In this document: positions 1-57,313 of the stretch, piece by piece | Numbering within the stretch: position 1 is the stretch's first letter | How the letters are laid out: each line of letters starts with the position of its first letter | From: Herbidospora sakaeratensis | GTDB lineage: Bacteria; Actinomycetota; Actinomycetes; Streptosporangiales; Streptosporangiaceae | Direction: 5' to 3' | Assembly: GCF_001570525.1 (NCBI RefSeq) | Contig: NZ_BBXC01000031.1 | Location: forward strand, 1-64,000 | Length of the DNA: 64,000 bases | Made by a program: the position numbers and the translations under genes | The notes under the pieces: generated by a model | Seen by the model: only the letters and a program-made list of their open reading frames with translations | The model's database searches: none | Told to the model about the DNA's origin: nothing

Positions 1-40
1 CGGGGCAGCTTCAAGCGGGGCAGCTCCAAACAGGACTGGT

Positions 41-2854: not shown

Positions 2855-4600
2855 CTACGCGTCCTTGATCTCGCAGATCACCGACCCGGCGGTGACCGTC
2901 TGACCGACCCCGGCGGCCAGCCCGGTGATCACGCCGGCCTTGTGGGCGGTGAGCGGCTGCTCCATCTTCATGGCCTCCAGGACCACGATCGTGTCGCCGG
3001 GCGACACCGACTCGCCGTCTCCGGCGACGACCTTGACGATCGTCCCCTGCATCGGGCTCACCAGCGAGTCGCCGGACGCCGCCGCCTTCTTGGCCGCGCC
3101 GCCGGAGCGTTTGGGAGCCTTCTGTACGGATCTCGCCGTCCCCCCGCCCGAGAACCCCGACGGCAGGACCACCTCCAGCCGCTTGCCCCCGACCTCGACC
3201 GTGATCCGCTCACGGGCGGCCGGTTCGGCCGTCTCCTGGGCCCCGTCGTAGGGCGGGACGTCGTTCACGAACTCGGTCTCGATCCAGCGGGTGTGCACCG
3301 AGAACGGCTCGGAGACGAACGCCGGGTCGGTCACGACCTTCCGGTGGAACGGGATGACCGTGGGCATGCCCTCGACCTCGAACTCCGCCAGGGCCCGGCG
3401 GGCCCGCTCCAGCGCCTGGGCGCGCGTGGCGCCGGTGACGATCAGCTTCGCGACCAGCGAGTCGAACGACTGGGGGACCGTCATCCCGGCCTCGTACCCC
3501 GAGTCGAGCCGGACGCCCGGCCCCGACGGGGTGCGCAGCGCGGTCAGCGTGCCGGGGGCGGGCAGGAAGCCGCGCCCGGCGTCCTCGGCGTTCACGCGGA
3601 ACTCGAAGGAGTGGCCGCGCAGCTTGGGGTCGCCGTAGCCGAGGGTCTCGCCGTCGGCGATGCGGAACATCTCCCGCACCAGGTCGATGCCGGACACCTC
3701 CTCGGTCACCGGGTGCTCCACCTGGAGGCGGGTGTTGACCTCCAGGAAGGAGATCGTGCCGTCCTGGCCCACGAGGAACTCGCAGGTGCCGGCCCCCACG
3801 TAGCCCGCCTCGCGGAGGATGGCCTTCGAGCTGTCGTACAGGATGACCATCTGCTCCTCGGTGAGGAACGGCGCGGGGGCCTCCTCGACGAGCTTCTGGT
3901 GGCGGCGCTGGAGGGAGCAGTCGCGGGTCGAGACGACGACCACGTTGCCGTGGGAGTCGGCCAGGCACTGGGTCTCGACGTGGCGGGGGCGGTCGAGGTA
4001 ACGCTCGACGAAGCACTCGCCCCGGCCGAACGCGGTGACGGCCTCGCGCACCGCGGATTCGTACAGGTCGGGGATCTCCTCCGTGGTGCGGGCCACCTTG
4101 AGGCCGCGCCCGCCGCCGCCGAAGGCCGCCTTGATCGCGATCGGCAGGCCGTTCTCGGCGGCGAACGCGACGACCTCCTCCACGCCGGAGACGGGGTCGG
4201 GGGTGCCCGCCACGAGGGGGGCGCCGACCCGCTGGGCGATGTGCCGCGCCTGCACCTTGTCGCCGAGCGCCATGATCGCCGACGGGGGCGGGCCGATCCA
4301 GGTCAGCCCGGCGTCGATGACGGCCTGGGCGAAGCCCGCGTTCTCGGCGAGGAAGCCGTAACCGGGGTGCACCGCGTCGGCCCCGGTCTCGCGGGCCACC
4401 TTGAGCAGTTTCTCGATGTCCAGGTATGTCTCAGCGGGGCTCTGCCCGCCCAGCGCGTGGGCCTCGTCGGCCACTCTGACGTGCAGGGCGTCCAGATCCT
4501 GGTCCGCGTACACGGCGACGCTCGCCAGACCCGCGTCCGCGCACGCCCGGGCGATCCGAACGGCGATCTCGCCCCGATTGGCGATCAGGACCTTCTGCAC
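2855..4600 (-). CDS. accA: Acetyl-/propionyl-CoA carboxylase alpha subunit (biotin carboxylase + BCCP)
   Basis: This 581-residue subunit carboxylates its own biotin with ATP and bicarbonate, then passes the carboxyl group to a beta subunit to make malonyl-CoA or methylmalonyl-CoA. [20 protein letters not shown] is the standard biotin carboxylase start. The ATP-grasp domain holds the glycine-rich loop [13 protein letters not shown] and the catalytic region [17 protein letters not shown] linker leads to the C-terminal biotinyl domain, with the target lysine in EAMKMEQP near residue 545. The fused layout and length match actinobacterial AccA3/PccA/BccA. The partner beta and epsilon subunits lie at 24.6-26.4 kb and the biotin ligase at 32.9 kb. 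The exact acyl-CoA substrate cannot be read from this subunit. Confidence 0.95.
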
Positions 4601-50500: not shown

Positions 50501-51247
50501 CTAGGAGATCTTGCGGCGGTAGGTCGACATCGCGAAGAAGTACGTCACCACCAGGATCCCGACGCACCAGGCCAGGGCGATCCAGATGTCGTCGCCGACC
50601 GGCTGTTCGGTGAACAGGTTGCGGAGGGCGTTGGCGATAGAGGTCACCGGCTGGTTCTCGGCGAAGGCGCGGACCGGGCCGGGCATGCTGTCGGTCGGCA
50701 CGAAGGCCGAGCTGATGAACGGCAGGAAGATGAGCGGGTAGGAGAAGGCGCTCGCGCCGTCGATGGTCTTGGCGGTGAGGCCGGGGATGACGGCGAGCCA
50801 GGTCAGCGCGAGGGTGAACAGGATCAGGATGCCGGCGACGGCGAGCCACGACGCCAGTCCGGCCGACGAGCGGAAGCCCATGAGCAGGGCGACCAGCACG
50901 ACGACCACGAGCGAGATCATGTTGGCGACGAGCGAGGTCAGCACGTGGGCCCACAACACCGACGAGCGGGCGATCGGCATCGACTGGAAACGTTCGAAGA
51001 TGCCGTTCTGCATGTCCATGAACAGGCGGAACGCGGTGTAGGCGATGCCGGAGGCGACCGTGATGAGCAGGATGCCGGGCAGCAGGTAGTTCACGTAGGA
51101 CGCGGATCCGGTCTGGATCGCGCCGCCCAGGACGTACACGAACAACAACATGAACATGACCGGGGTGACGCAGGTCGTGATGATCGTGTCGGGGCTGCGG
51201 CTGATGTGGCGTAGAGAACGGCCCGTCAGGGTGAAGATGTCGGTCAT
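50501..51247 (-). CDS. ABC-2 permease (DrrB-like)
   Basis: ATG 51247 overlaps the ATPase stop by four bases and gives 248 residues. Six membrane segments are present: TIITTCVTPVMFMLLFVYVLGGAI, YLLPGILLITVASGIAYTAF, VLTSLVANMISLVVVVLVALLMGF, WLAVAGILILFTLALTWLAVI, YPLIFLPFISSAFVP and IALAWCVGILVVTYFFAM. The sequence is of the DrrB daunorubicin-exporter type. It exports an unknown compound with the ATPase upstream, under a PadR regulator. Confidence 0.93.
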   Translation of the reverse strand: MTDIFTLTGRSLRHISRSPDTIITTCVTPVMFMLLFVYVLGGAIQTGSASYVNYLLPGILLITVASGIAYTAFRLFMDMQNGIFERFQSMPIARSSVLWAHVLTSLVANMISLVVVVLVALLMGFRSSAGLASWLAVAGILILFTLALTWLAVIPGLTAKTIDGASAFSYPLIFLPFISSAFVPTDSMPGPVRAFAENQPVTSIANALRNLFTEQPVGDDIWIALAWCVGILVVTYFFAMSTYRRKIS

Positions 51248-52002
51248 TTCTGGTCCTTCGTGCCTACGAGGGTGAGGAAGACGTCTTCGAGAGTGGGCTG
51301 CTTCTCCACGTATTCGACCTTGGCGGGCGGGAGCAGCTGCTTGAGCTCGGCGAGGGTGCCGGTCACGATGATCTTTCCTTCGTGGAGGATGGCGATGCGG
51401 TCGGCGAGTTGCTCGGCCTCGTCGAGGTACTGCGTCGTGAGCAGGACCGTCGTGCCCTGGGCGGCGAGTTCCCTGACGGCGGCCCACACCTCGATGCGCG
51501 CCTGCGGGTCGAGGCCGGTGGTGGGCTCGTCGAGGAAGATGATCGGCGGGCTGCCGATGAGGCTCATCGCGATGTCGAGGCGGCGGCGCATGCCGCCCGA
51601 ATAGGTGGCCACCTTCCGGCCGCCCGCGTCGGTCAGCGAGAACCGTGCCAGCAGGTCGTCGGCGATCGTGCCGGCGTCTTTGAGGTGGCGCAGTCTGGCG
51701 ACCAGGACGAGGTTCTCCCGTCCGGTGAGGATCTCGTCGACGGCCGCGAACTGGCCGGTGAGGCTGATGGAGTTCCGCACGTCGGCCGGCTGCCTGGCGA
51801 CGTCGAAGCCGTTGACGCCGGCGCTGCCCGCGTCGGCCCTGAGCAGGGTGGACAGGATCTTCACGACCGTGGTCTTGCCGGCGCCGTTCGAGCCGAGCAG
51901 GGCGAAGATGCTGCCCGGCGCCACCTCGAAGTCGACGCCCTTCAGAACCTTCAGGTCCTTGTACGACTTCTCCAGGCCACGAACCTGGATCGCCTGACTC
52001 AT
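51244..52002 (-). CDS. ABC transporter ATPase (DrrA-like)
   Basis: ATG 52002 overlaps the DUF1048 stop and gives 252 residues. Motifs: LEKSYKDLKVLKGVDFEVAPG, Walker A LLGSNGAGKTTVVKILSTLL, signature ATYSGGMRRRLDIAMSLI, Walker B PIIFLDEPTTGLDPQ and switch LLTTQYLDEAEQLADRI. The C-terminal piece (VEYVEKQPTLEDVFLTLVG) is characteristic of DrrA. Its N-terminal coding sequence has a small decayed copy at 48.55 kb. Confidence 0.94.
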   Translation of the reverse strand: MSQAIQVRGLEKSYKDLKVLKGVDFEVAPGSIFALLGSNGAGKTTVVKILSTLLRADAGSAGVNGFDVARQPADVRNSISLTGQFAAVDEILTGRENLVLVARLRHLKDAGTIADDLLARFSLTDAGGRKVATYSGGMRRRLDIAMSLIGSPPIIFLDEPTTGLDPQARIEVWAAVRELAAQGTTVLLTTQYLDEAEQLADRIAILHEGKIIVTGTLAELKQLLPPAKVEYVEKQPTLEDVFLTLVGTKDQK

Positions 52003-52403
52003 CGGCTGGTCCCTTCTTCTTCTCCGGCCGCCCGGGCGACCGCGTTGGTGAACCGGTTGCGCTCGCGTCCCATCCATCTGCCGATCGGGTAGTTCTGGAT
52101 GAACGTCTCGACGAACTCGATGGGGTCGTCCCCGAAGATGTCGCGGATCGGCGTCCGGTCGGCGGCGCTCTGCTCGGCCAGGTCGGCGAGGTCCTCGTAC
52201 ATCTCCATCGCGCCGGGGCCGTCGGCCCGGCCGAAGAACATCAGGTAGCGCTCCATCGCCTCGAAGGCGGTGCGGTAGTCGTCGGGGAGCTTCGCGATTC
52301 GTGCCTTGTAGTGCCGGTAGCGCCTCTTGTCGTCGAACGATCCGGTGACCACCTCCAGGTACTTCAGGAAGCGGTTCTTGTCTTCGCCGGACTCTTCTGC
52401 CAT
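51999..52403 (-). CDS. DUF1048 family protein
   Basis: The 134-residue helical protein carries the DUF1048 pattern (KYLEVVTGSFDDKRRYRHYKARIAKLPDDYRTAFEAMERYLMFFG...FVETFIQNYPIGRWMGRERNRF). Genes of this family sit between PadR regulators and DrrAB-like exporters in many actinobacteria, exactly as here. The role is unknown, perhaps a co-regulator or adaptor. It starts two bases from the PadR stop and overlaps the ATPase start. Confidence 0.9.
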   Translation of the reverse strand: MAEESGEDKNRFLKYLEVVTGSFDDKRRYRHYKARIAKLPDDYRTAFEAMERYLMFFGRADGPGAMEMYEDLADLAEQSAADRTPIRDIFGDDPIEFVETFIQNYPIGRWMGRERNRFTNAVARAAGEEEGTSR

Positions 52404-52405
52404 GG

Positions 52406-52735
52406 CTAGTTGCCTCCTCTGTGGAGCTGTTCCAGTCGTTCGGAGAGGAAGCTCCAGGTCCTCCAGAACTCTTCGAGGTGGTCGCGTCCCTGTGTGTTGA
52501 GGGAGTAGACCTTGCGCGGGGGCCCCTTCTCGGAGGGGACCTTCTCGACGTCGACGAACCCGCGTTGCTCGATCCGGACGAGCAGGGCGTAGACGGTTCC
52601 TTCGGCGATGTCGGCGAAGCCCTGGTCGCGCAGCCAGGCGGTGATCTCGTAGCCGTACGCGGACCGCACGGCGAGGATCGCGAGCACGATGCCCTCCAGC
52701 GTTCCCTTGAGCATCTCCGTCATCTGCTTGCCCAT
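52406..52735 (-). CDS. PadR-family transcriptional regulator
   Basis: ATG 52735 (GTG 52741 is possible) gives 109 residues. The winged helix is clear: LKGTLEGIVLAILAVRSAYGYEITAWLRDQGFADIAEGTVYALLVRIEQRGFVDVEKVPSEKGPPRKVYSL. It ends in the dimerising helix FWRTWSFLSERLEQLHRG. It should repress the downstream DUF1048-ABC genes until a ligand binds. Repeats and dyads upstream are candidate operators. Confidence 0.94.
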   Translation of the reverse strand: MGKQMTEMLKGTLEGIVLAILAVRSAYGYEITAWLRDQGFADIAEGTVYALLVRIEQRGFVDVEKVPSEKGPPRKVYSLNTQGRDHLEEFWRTWSFLSERLEQLHRGGN

Positions 52736-52768
52736 GGACACCCCATCTGGCTATTCAGCGTCGCTAGC

Positions 52769-52801
52769 TACTGGTACAAAGTAACACTGACTACCGGTAC
52801 A
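52769..52801. promoter_or_regulatory. TACYGGTACA direct repeats before padR
   Basis: TACTGGTACA (52769-52778) and TACCGGTACA (52792-52801) are 23 bp apart, about two helical turns. They lie 34-66 bp upstream of the padR start. Each is itself near-palindromic. They are candidate PadR sites. Confidence 0.5.
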
Positions 52802-52826
52802 TAGCAATGCTGAATACCGCCGTCTT

Positions 52827-52852
52827 GGTATACGTATGAGCATACGTATACC
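52827..52852. promoter_or_regulatory. Perfect 26-bp inverted repeat
   Basis: Arms GGTATACGTATG and CATACGTATACC flank a 2-bp AG centre, in an AT-rich core within a GC-rich genome. It lies about 90 bp upstream of padR and 105 bp upstream of the small plus-strand gene. This is an operator for a dimeric regulator, of which PadR is the nearest candidate. Confidence 0.65.
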
Positions 52853-52956
52853 GGGGAATGGTTGACAAGAGACTCTCCGCCGACCCCGGAGTGAGGTGGG
52901 CTCGATCCGATGAGTAGTCTCTTGCGGATTCCCCGCCGGCTCGGAGGTCCCCACGA

Positions 52957-53377: not shown

Positions 53378-56300
53378 GTGGCGCAGGTGCGGACGGTCTG
53401 TTCGTATTGCGGTGTCGGCTGCGGCATGGTCCTCGACGTCGCGACGGGGCCCGACGGGCGGCGTACGGTCCGGAAGGTCTCCGGCGACAAGGACCACCCG
53501 GCGAACTTCGGCCGCCTGTGCACCAAGGGCGCGACCACCGCCGACATGCTCGCCGCGCCCGGACGCCTGGACACCGCGCTGGTCCGCCGGGAACGCGGCC
53601 TGGAGCCCGCCCGGGTGGGACTGGACGAGGCCGTCGCCGAGACGGCCCGGCGGCTGCGCGCCGTCATCGACGAGCACGGACCCGACGCCGTCTCCCTGTA
53701 CGTCTCCGGGCAGATGAGCCTCGAAGCCCAGTACCTGGCCAACAAGCTGGCCAAGGGGTTCATCGGCACCAACCAGATCGAGTCGAACTCCCGGCTCTGC
53801 ATGGCCAGCGCGGGCACCGGATACAAGTTGTCGCTCGGGGCCGACGGGCCGCCCGGTTCGTACGACGACTTCGACCGGGCCGACGTCTTCTTCGTCATCG
53901 GGTCGAACATGGCCGACTGCCACCCGATCCTGTTCCTGCGCATGATGGACCGGATCAAGGCGGGCGCGAAGCTGATCGTGGTCGACCCCCGGCGCAGCGC
54001 CACGGCCGACAAGGCCGACCTGTTCCTCCAGATCAGGCCGGGCACCGACCTCGCCCTGCTCAACGGCCTGCTCCACCTGCTGGCCGAGAACGGGCACACC
54101 GACCCCGCCTTCATCGCCGCGCACACCGAGGGCTGGGAGGCGATGCCCGGCTTCCTGGACGACTACCCGCCCGCGACGGTCGCCGAGATCACCGGCCTCC
54201 CGGAGGCCGCAATCCGTCAGGCGGCCGAGTGGATCGGCACGGCGGGGGAGTGGATGAGCTGCTGGACCATGGGGCTCAACCAGAGCACCCACGGCACGTG
54301 GAACACCAACGCCCTGGTCAACCTGCATCTGGCGACGGGCGCGATCTGCCGTCCAGGAAGCGGGCCCTTCTCCCTGACCGGCCAGCCCAACGCCATGGGC
54401 GGCCGGGAGATGGGCTACATGGGGCCCGGCCTCCCGGGCCAGCGGTCCGTGCTCGTCGAGGAGGAGCGGGCGTTCGCCGAGGACCTGTGGGGGCTGCCGC
54501 CCGGCACGATCCGCCCGGACGGCGCGGGCCGGGGCACGATCGAGATGTTCGAGCGCATGGCCGCGGGCGAGATCAAGGCCTGCTGGATCATCTGCACCAA
54601 CCCGATCGCGTCGGTGGCCAACCGGCGCACCGTCATCGAGGCGCTGGAGGCGGCCGAGTTCGTCGTCACCCAGGACGTCTTCGCCGAGACCGAGACCAAC
54701 GCCTACGCCGACGTCGTGCTGCCGGGCGCGATGTGGGTCGAGGCCGAGGGCGTGCTGATCAACAGCGAGCGCAACCTCACCCTGGCCAGGCAGGCGGTCG
54801 ACCCGCCCGGCGAGGCCACCGCCGACTGGCGCATCATCGCCGCGGTCGCCCGTGCGATGGGCTACGAGCAGGGGTTCTCCTACGACAGCGCGGAGGAGAT
54901 CTTCGCGGAGATCAAGCGCGCCGCGAACCCGAAGACCGGCTACGACCTGCGGGGAGTCACCTACGACAGGCTACGGGCCACGCCCGTCCAGTGGCCGGCG
55001 GCCGTCGGCGGGCCCGACCGCAACCCGATCCGCTACCGCGAGCCCGACGGCGGTCTTCGTTTCCCGACGCCGAGCGGCCGGGCGGTGTTCCATCCCCGCC
55101 CGCACCTGCCGGCCAAGGAGATGCCCGACGACGACTTCCCGTTCGTCCTGAACACCGGCCGGGTGCAGCACCAGTGGCACACCCTCACCAAGACCGGCCG
55201 GGTCGGCAAGCTGAACAAGCTGAACCCGGCCCCGTTCCTGGAGATCCACCCGTCGGACGCGCGGGCCCTGGGCGTCGAGGAGGGCGACTCGGTCGAGGTG
55301 GCCTCACGGCGCGGGCGGGCCGTGCTCCCGGCGGTGCTCACCGACCGGGTGATGCCCGGCGCCTGCTTCGCGCCCTTCCACTGGAACGACCTGTTCGGCG
55401 AATATCTCAGCGTCAACGCGGTGACCAGCGACGCGGTCGACCCGATCTCGTTCCAGCCCGAGCTCAAGGTGTGCGCGGTGGCGCTCAGCCGGGTCGCCGC
55501 ACCGGCCGTTCCGGCCGACGTGTTCGGCCTGGCCGACACCGTGCCGCCGGTCCTGACCGACCAGGAACGCCGCTACCTGGCCGGGTTCCTCACCGGCCTG
55601 CGATCCGGTACGCCGGGCGTGCCGGTGCTGCCGCCGGGAGCGCCGTTCGCCGCCGACCACGCGTTGTGGGTCAACGGCGTGCTGGCCGGCATGTTCTCCC
55701 GTCTCCCCGAGCTCGCCGAAGAAGACACCGGGGCCCAGGTGGTCGTCCTGTGGGCGTCGCAGACAGGGAACGCGGAGGAGTTCGCCGCCGTCGCCGCGCA
55801 GCGCCTCACCGCCGCCGGCCACCGGGTGCGGCTCGTCGGCATGTCCGACACCGACCCGAAGGCCTTCCCCGGCGCCGACCTGCTGCTGATCACCAGCACC
55901 TTCGGCGACGGCGAGTCGCCCGACAACGGCGCCGGCTTCTGGGAGAGCCTGGCCGCCGCCGACGCCGCCCGGCTCGACGGCGTGCGGTTCGCGGTGCTGG
56001 CCTTCGGCGACTCCTCCTACGACGACTTCTGCGGCCACGGCCGCCGACTGGACGGGCGCCTGGAGGAACTCGGCGCCGTCCGCCTGGCCGACCGGACCGA
56101 CTGCGAACCCGACTACGAGGTCGCCGCGCAGGCGTGGTTGTCCGAGGTCCTCACCGTCCTGGGCTCCCGTCCGCCGGCGGCTCCGCCGCCCGCCCCCGTC
56201 GCATCGCCCGGCGTGTCGACGCCTCTTGTCGGCAACCAGTTGCTCAGCCGCCCCGGCGCGACCAAGGAGGTGCGCCGGTTCACCTTCGACCTGCGTGACA

Positions 56301-57313
56301 GCCCTCTCACCTATCGGGTGGGCGACGCCCTGGGCGTGCGTCCGGAGAACTGTCCCGACCTCGTGGCCGAGTGGCTCGCCGTCACCCGACTCGACGGCGC
56401 CGCCGAGATCGAGCTCGACGGCGTCGGAACCCTGCCACTGAGGGACGCCTTCCTCCGGCACCTGGACATCACGAAGATCACCACCGACCTGCTGCGCTTC
56501 GCCGCCGACCGCACCGGCGCCCGCGAGCTCAGGAAACTCCTGCGCCCCGACAACAAGAACGAGCTCGCGCAGTGGTCCTGGGGCCGCCAGGCCGTCGACG
56601 TCATCGGCGAACACCCGGTCAGGGCGACCCCGCAGGAGTGGGCCGGCACGCTCCGGCGACTGCAACCGCGCCTGTACTCGATCTCCTCCAGCCCGCTGGT
56701 CGACGACGGCGAGGTCTCCGTGACGGTGTCGGTCGTCCGGTACGACAACCTCCACGGCCGCCCCAGGAAGGGCGTCTGCTCGGCCTTCCTGGCCGACGCC
56801 GCCCCCGGCACCCCCATGCCGATCTTCGTGCGGGCCTCTCCGCACTTCCGCCCGCCGGCCGATCCCGCCACCCCCATGATCATGATCGGCCCGGGGACCG
56901 GGGTGGCGCCCTTCCTCGGCTTCCTGCAGGAGCGCCGCGCCCTGGGACATCGCGGCGCCAACTGGCTGTTCTTCGGCGAGCAGCACCGAGCCACCGACTT
57001 CTACTACGAGAACGAGCTCACCGAGCTCATCTCCGGCGGCACCCTCGACCGGCTCGACACCGCCTTCTCCCGGGACCAGCGGACCAAGATCTACGTCCAG
57101 GACCGCATGAGGGAACAGGGCCACCGGTTGTGGGCCTGGCTCCAGGACGGCGCCGGCCTGTACGTCTGCGGCGACGCCTCCCGCATGGCCAGGGACGTGG
57201 ACGAGGCGCTCCGCGACATCATCGCCACCCACGGGTCACTCGACCGGGAGGCCGCCGCCGCGTACGTGAAGCGGCTGGCCGCCGACAAACGCTACGTCCG
57301 CGACGTCTACTGA
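53378..57313 (+). CDS. Assimilatory nitrate reductase fused to CysJ-like flavoprotein reductase
   Basis: The 1311-residue fusion should reduce nitrate to nitrite with electrons from NAD(P)H. The N-terminal half is a NarB/NasA-type molybdopterin enzyme. Its 4Fe-4S site has Cys8, Cys11, Cys15 and Cys48 ([20 protein letters not shown]), and the likely Mo ligand is Cys141 in [16 protein letters not shown]. The molybdopterin-binding C-domain spans [24 protein letters not shown] to about 710. A flavodoxin domain starts near 787 ([28 protein letters not shown]). An FAD/NADP domain follows ([49 protein letters not shown]). It is thus self-sufficient for electron supply. No nitrite reductase gene adjoins it. 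Confidence 0.95.

Follow-up and report, generated by a model that had tools for sequence, protein, structure and literature searches.

The DrrAB-like operon of the window (the whole stretch of DNA analysed, 64,000 nucleotides from the soil actinomycete genus Herbidospora), a putative drug exporter, is quite probably transcribed from a compound promoter under dual repression, by its own PadR regulator acting in cis and by a protein of the EXLDI family (TIGR04342) acting in trans. A predicted PadR operator and a predicted EXLDI site, the latter a 26-bp inverted repeat (IR), each overlap a sigma-70-like promoter. With one site fitting the operon's own PadR and the other matching the promoter of an EXLDI gene, two regulators probably govern the pump. 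More broadly, EXLDI proteins may well be DNA-binding repressors that control ABC exporters and their own genes by reading TACGTA-N6-TACGTA, a family that has so far gone unrecognised; in Herbidospora, they would have been uncoupled from cis to trans control beside a PadR operator toggling between two promoter geometries by means of one 23-bp unit. A database family without described function would thereby be assigned a precisely defined operator and a role open to experiment.

Organization of the exporter operon and its upstream region

The operon comprises four genes in the order PadR, DUF1048, ABC ATPase and ABC-2 permease, all on the minus strand:

52406..52735, minus strand: PadR regulator, LftR-like (PF03551, 66.6 bits, cut-off 27)
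51999..52403, minus strand: DUF1048 protein (PF06304, 71 bits)
51244..52002, minus strand: ABC transporter ATPase, DrrA-like (PF00005; TIGR01188, 286.3 bits, below the cut-off of 312.45)
50501..51235, minus strand: ABC-2 permease, DrrB-like (PF01061; TIGR00025, 70.3 bits, below the cut-off of 146.9)

The PadR gene has an alternative GTG start six bases upstream. Its product is 48% identical to LftR and, in the alignment, shares the contact residues K9, Y28, Y48 and R53 with it, with K56 replaced by Q57 and L69 by K70; the best match among PDB sequences is 4esf (E 2.2e-35), which we take to be bcPadR2. The whole genome contains 21 PadR-domain matches, 18 of them above cut-off, and only one PadR gene lies near the operators, as had been stated in the initial annotation. 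Judged by its domain scores, the ABC pair is DrrAB-like and not DrrAB, the cut-offs of the DrrAB exporter family being missed for TIGR01247 (45.9 bits, cut-off 223.05) as well as for TIGR01188. At 53378-57313 (plus strand), a 1311-aa chain is encoded in which flavodoxin, FAD and NAD domains are joined to a molybdopterin oxidoreductase, by resemblance an assimilatory nitrate-reductase-like fusion.

The region upstream of PadR contains the following elements:

52752..52816, minus strand: predicted PadR operator, long form, with TATTCAG...CTGAATA ends and two 23-bp units
52769..52778, plus strand: box TACTGGTACA, core of the second 23-bp unit
52792..52801, plus strand: box TACCGGTACA, core of the first 23-bp unit as read on the minus strand
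52827..52852, no strand: IR, predicted EXLDI-family operator with a TACGTA-N6-TACGTA core (from the sequence, genome search and matrix)
52863..52868, minus strand: predicted -35 box of the distal promoter, TTGTCA (CTTGnC in 6/6 aligned Herbidospora promoters)
52839..52844, minus strand: predicted -10 box of the distal promoter, TATGCT, inside the IR (18-nt spacer)
52802..52807, minus strand: predicted -35 box of the proximal promoter, TTGCTA, in the first operator unit
52778..52783, minus strand: predicted -10 box of the proximal promoter, TACTTT, in the second operator unit (18-nt spacer)

The initial annotation had described a perfect 26-bp inverted repeat and, 25 bp away, two TACYGGTACA boxes 23 bp apart in a short AT-rich region, and this description proved exact. 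The IR reads GGTATACGTATG-AG-CATACGTATACC, with arms complementary at 12/12 positions, the two boxes are spaced by 23 nt from start to start and end 25 nt before it, and the G+C content of positions 52769-52852 is 37/84 (44%), compared with 70.4% for the window. Perfect arms alone are not unique in the window, because four distinct places have them at spacers of 0-8 (seven repeats if nested ones are counted apart, versus 0.25 in Markov simulations); the IR is the only one with at least seven A/T per arm, a composition seen in none of 60 simulations. Upstream of the distal promoter, there is also a perfect inverted repeat of 9 bp (CAAGAGACT/AGTCTCTTG, 52866-52874 and 52916-52924) whose arms are 41 nt apart.

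The predicted PadR operator

Both direct-repeat boxes are enclosed by a larger inverted repeat (52752-52816) with 25-nt arms that are 80% complementary. By their sequence, the direct repeats are the duplicated core of a single predicted, dyad-symmetric PadR operator, not a separate operator type. The proposal of two operator architectures thus stands insofar as the two elements differ and separate regulators are predicted for them, whereas the larger dyad around the repeats had been missed.

For comparison, the best 80 of 448 PadR relatives (83-90% identical) were taken together with their upstream DNA. Across Actinobacteria, the putative operator is retained in front of orthologous PadR genes and occurs in two forms, a short one of 44 bp (for example CTATTCAGTGTTACTATGTACCAGTAGTCAGCAACACTGAGTAG) and a long one of 67 bp, which corresponds to the short form plus one more 23-bp unit. 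One of these forms fits 78/80 loci, 43 being long, 35 short and 2 neither (L074, which has Ns, and L091); the strict rule alone gave 40/38/2, and three loci (L029, L048 and L076) were re-filed by eye from short to long. Looser mismatch rules, with long/short/none counts of 69/10/1, 14/62/4 (due to an offset error in the rule) and 52/27/1, blurred the forms and were discarded; the link between form and promoter was weaker or absent under the first two and present under the third.

In the promoter counts, which share ancestry and for which Fisher p-values, overstating independence, were set aside, a TTG box (TTGCTA and variants) lies in the first unit of 42/43 long forms and a TANNNT box 18 nt past it, in the second unit, of 41/43, with an external TTG at the proper upstream distance in just 4/43. 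Short forms show a TTG in the first unit in 0/35 cases, a TANNNT there in 30/35 and an external TTG in 30/35. The extra 23-bp unit would therefore convert the short-form -10 box into the long-form -35 box, so that a single unit would provide two promoter layouts on one operator. Mapped onto a PadR tree, the two forms require a minimum of 13 switches. Across the five supported independent pairs, the internal TTG followed the form in four; the external -35 box differed in the expected direction in an average of only 0.8 of the five, and its switch is therefore unsupported on the tree.

The operator of the window is of the long form, and the PadR promoters of four other Herbidospora genomes (G001-G004) are of the short form. 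A pattern for the PadR core matched 12 places in the seven Herbidospora genomes, all at PadR or pump promoters; taken alone, it is not specific, because a reversed control pattern gave 16 matches. The core was also recognized before a Mesobacillus PadR (aligned by eye), and three further PadR promoters from Bacillaceae resemble it more loosely. Records named Devosia, Bradyrhizobium and Mesorhizobium (L034, L052 and L093) carry PadR proteins 88-89% identical to that of the window behind the same short operator, which suggests that the cassette was transferred along with its operator.

The inverted repeat and the EXLDI family

The initial annotation had proposed a search for further genomic copies of the 26-mer. 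Within three mismatches, no second copy was detected in the 8.6-Mb genome; a degenerate pattern (at most three mismatches), written to cover both sites after both had been seen, matched only the IR and an EXLDI promoter, and its reversed control gave no match in the same genome and three across all seven Herbidospora genomes. With two mismatches allowed, IR-like sites were present in 6/250 family genomes, namely 5/7 Herbidospora and G195, where the core lies 20 nt before an EXLDI-family gene. The EXLDI gene of the genome under study is located on another contig (G000:C7:1107822-1108223; 89.9 bits, cut-off 32). The sequence upstream of it, AACATACGTATACTTATGCGCATACG, was missed by the three-mismatch search because it differs from the IR at 8/26 positions, and it is far less symmetric, with 5/12 arm pairs broken.

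EXLDI loci outside Herbidospora were collected by protein family alone (n = 12; L110-L112, L114 and L148-L155). A TACGTA-N6-TACGTA site (at least 10/12 positions, at most 80 nt from the start) precedes the gene in 11 of them, L114 being the exception without a good site. The same test was positive in 0/80 cases for the last 80 nt of the PadR upstream regions, a stretch just outside which the Herbidospora IR would fall, and in 10/505 of the 80-nt tiles of the 12 EXLDI loci, site tiles included. A matrix derived from the 12 promoters ranked the IR first in the 64-kb window, with 34.6 bits compared to 4.0 for the best non-overlapping place. No Herbidospora site entered this matrix, nor did L109, which was left out because it had been found through the IR pattern itself; excluded from the promoter counts were also L156/L157 (pieces of further EXLDI matches, G547) and L120 (the EXLDI fragment of G001).

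In 13/13 loci from other genera (12 without L109) and also in Nocardia (L192), EXLDI is followed on its own strand by the Walker A motif of an ABC ATPase; within flanks of about 1.5 kb, such a motif was found at 0/6 Herbidospora EXLDI loci, and none was seen at a Leifsonia locus (L193). The latter, on a plasmid, encodes an EXLDI protein (82.5 bits); the start of the gene carries TGCGCATACTTATGCGCA, a variant palindrome (3460-3515), and an IS21 element lies nearby.

The TIGR04342 model, named for a motif and not for a function, begins at about residue 49 and omits the conserved MPNKTIYV N terminus. Searches of Pfam and PHROGs gave no significant match, hence no DNA-binding fold was recognized by sequence, and whole-length and N-terminal PDB profiles returned only spurious matches (designed repeat proteins, unrelated chains). 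An AlphaFold single-sequence model of the Antrihabitans protein (L087) is poor (mean pLDDT 45.5); in this low-confidence model, residues 1-9 are followed by helices 10-23 and 29-45, an N-terminal layout that, we presume, resembles a ribbon-helix-helix (RHH) protein. RHH membership was tried by sequence and failed in the Pfam, PHROGs and PDB profile comparisons. In viral contigs, only two distant N-terminal matches were obtained, to proteins (L190:2998-3333 and L191:3001-3387) that share the MPNKTIYV start and little else. No description of the family was found in open-licence full texts, in which the term EXLDI occurs in work on Parvimonas in colorectal cancer.

Proposed history of the cassette

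Antrihabitans stalagmiti (L087) carries, in one row, an EXLDI site, EXLDI, a short PadR operator, PadR, DUF1048, an ABC ATPase and an ABC permease, with each cassette protein scoring above its family cut-off. In the window, PadR and not EXLDI lies directly downstream of the IR, and there is no EXLDI gene between the two operators. The EXLDI gene is full-length and the pump operon carries a site in 6/7 Herbidospora genomes, a co-occurrence that rests on seven related genomes; the seventh (G001) has neither. G001 encodes a 66-aa C-terminal EXLDI fragment (L139:4521-4718, 75.8% identical) directly behind a transporter-like gene and right before the pump with its long PadR operator, and no IR is present there.

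The IR is situated upstream of PadR or DUF1048 in 5/7 Herbidospora species and before the ABC pair in a sixth. In the window, G002 and G003, the PadR gene is preceded by both the IR and the PadR operator. In G004, the IR and a long operator precede the ABC pair alone, with PadR-DUF1048 located elsewhere; in G005 and G006 (L141, L142), the IR and a short operator precede DUF1048-ABC, with no PadR gene between operator and DUF1048. The best PadR proteins elsewhere in the last two genomes are 53-55% identical and none exceeds 55%, and since the operator is nevertheless kept there, it may have another reader. Conservation in orthologous operons, on which the initial annotation had made its reading depend, was thus found for both elements, widely for the PadR operator and within the genus for the IR.

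The simplest history would be that EXLDI left its place between the two operators while its site stayed, and we infer this direction of movement from the arrangements described. Several stages in the parting of a regulator gene from an operon that retains its site would thereby be captured within one genus.

Promoters and proposed mechanism

Outside Herbidospora, the arrangement TTGNNN-16..18-TANNNT is found in the last 70 nt of 13/16 EXLDI upstream regions (shuffle rate 0.038), and by inspection the -10 box falls in the site. The TTG -35 box of this arrangement is lacking in 5/6 Herbidospora EXLDI upstream regions.

In the proposed mechanism, the proximal promoter (TTGCTA-18-TACTTT) would lie wholly within the 67-bp operator, to which PadR, the product of the first gene, would bind, repressing its own operon until released by an inducing compound or by DUF1048 signalling. 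The distal promoter (TTGTCA-18-TATGCT) has its predicted -10 box inside the IR, and EXLDI would repress this promoter as well as its own expression. Ancestrally, the EXLDI gene would have stood between the two sites, a place from which it is now absent in Herbidospora; because the gene is gone from the locus and the operator stayed, control would now be exerted in trans from another contig. Occupancy of the sites should block polymerase, which makes repression the natural reading; we infer that each protein binds its site, that the effect is repression and not activation, and that inducers act on it. As a distal transcript would cross the PadR operator, release may be of the AND type, with full expression only if both regulators let go. 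DUF1048-like HAAS proteins have been proposed to signal to their PadR partner (PMC11237479), which would fit a role of DUF1048 as co-sensor in the window operon.

Alternative explanations for the inverted repeat

The initial annotation had posed the alternative that PadR binds both elements or that a second regulator binds one of them. An auxiliary PadR site would explain the adjacency of the elements and their joint position upstream of PadR in the window, G002 and G003. However, when the 80 PadR loci (415,867 bases) were scanned with the matrix including L109, matches of at least 15 bits were confined to two of them, Herbidospora daliensis (L059, contig NZ_BBXF01000004) and L087, in which an EXLDI gene comes directly after the site. 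Moreover, the G004 IR stands at a lone ABC pair, the stretch with the G004 PadR gene has no such site, and the IR lacks the TACT..TACYRGTAG core. The IR is thus probably not a PadR site, binding of PadR to both elements is quite unlikely, and the second regulator is favoured, with EXLDI as the candidate. Another type of repressor might be envisaged, as regulators of the TetR, GntR and MarR families, for example, commonly have perfect palindromes of similar size; yet no further copy exists in the genome within three mismatches, the degenerate pattern adds only the EXLDI promoter and, across genera, the motif accompanies EXLDI genes, which leaves this option very improbable.

That the IR is a non-functional relic of the departure of the EXLDI gene is unlikely, although the fragment in G001 shows the ancestral arrangement in decay. 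The IR is kept in the six species listed above and, in the aligned Herbidospora promoters, is more strongly conserved than the DNA that separates it from the PadR operator; it has its own predicted -35 and -10 boxes, and the genomes with an IR still encode EXLDI. A role at the RNA level (hairpin, attenuator or terminator), which a perfect dyad upstream of a start codon might suggest, is extremely unlikely, given that no T-run follows the IR, that a terminator scan did not call it and that 2-3/12 arm pairs are broken in the five other Herbidospora pump copies, in which the left TACGTA is kept and the right one reads TGCGTA. Dual control by PadR and EXLDI remains the preferred reading.

Comparison with known systems

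The four-gene operon is already known from Bacillus cereus, where the bcPadR2 operon (BCE3449-BCE3448-BCE3447-BCE3446) comprises the same gene kinds, namely PadR, the 2O3L protein, a DrrA-like ATPase and a permease, according to the sections consulted (PMC3506622). The 2O3L protein is DUF1048-like (PMC11237479). The same sections of PMC3506622 propose only a degenerate, untried CTGT-N8-ATAT sequence, whereas the 44/67-bp operator of the window is defined by conservation, so that PadR-DUF1048 exporter operons would gain an operator in place of a degenerate guess; the EXLDI site, present at the window operon, is absent from that part of the account. Among the matches listed by wider searches of the open-licence literature, none dealt with PadR-DUF1048 exporter operators of this kind.

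LftR of Listeria monocytogenes likewise belongs to a PadR-DUF1048 pair (PMC4517056, PMC6457526, PMC6624303). It binds a 28-mer from its own promoter, OP-1, with a Kd of 6.2 nM, and its DNA-contact residues K9, Y28, Y48, R53, K56 and L69 were shown by mutation (PMC6457526); the 2015 paper found no shared LftR site. The lftR promoter contains a 44-bp element laid out as in the short PadR operator (aligned by eye). The exporter lieAB is unlinked to lftR, whereas the exporter and PadR of the window share one operon. LmrR-type PadR operators (ATGT-N8-ACAT; PMC4517056) are also dyad-symmetric sites, through which small PadR repressors control drug exporters; the predicted operator of the window exceeds them greatly in length and has TACTATGTACCRGTAG as its core and TATTCAG/CTGAATA at its ends.
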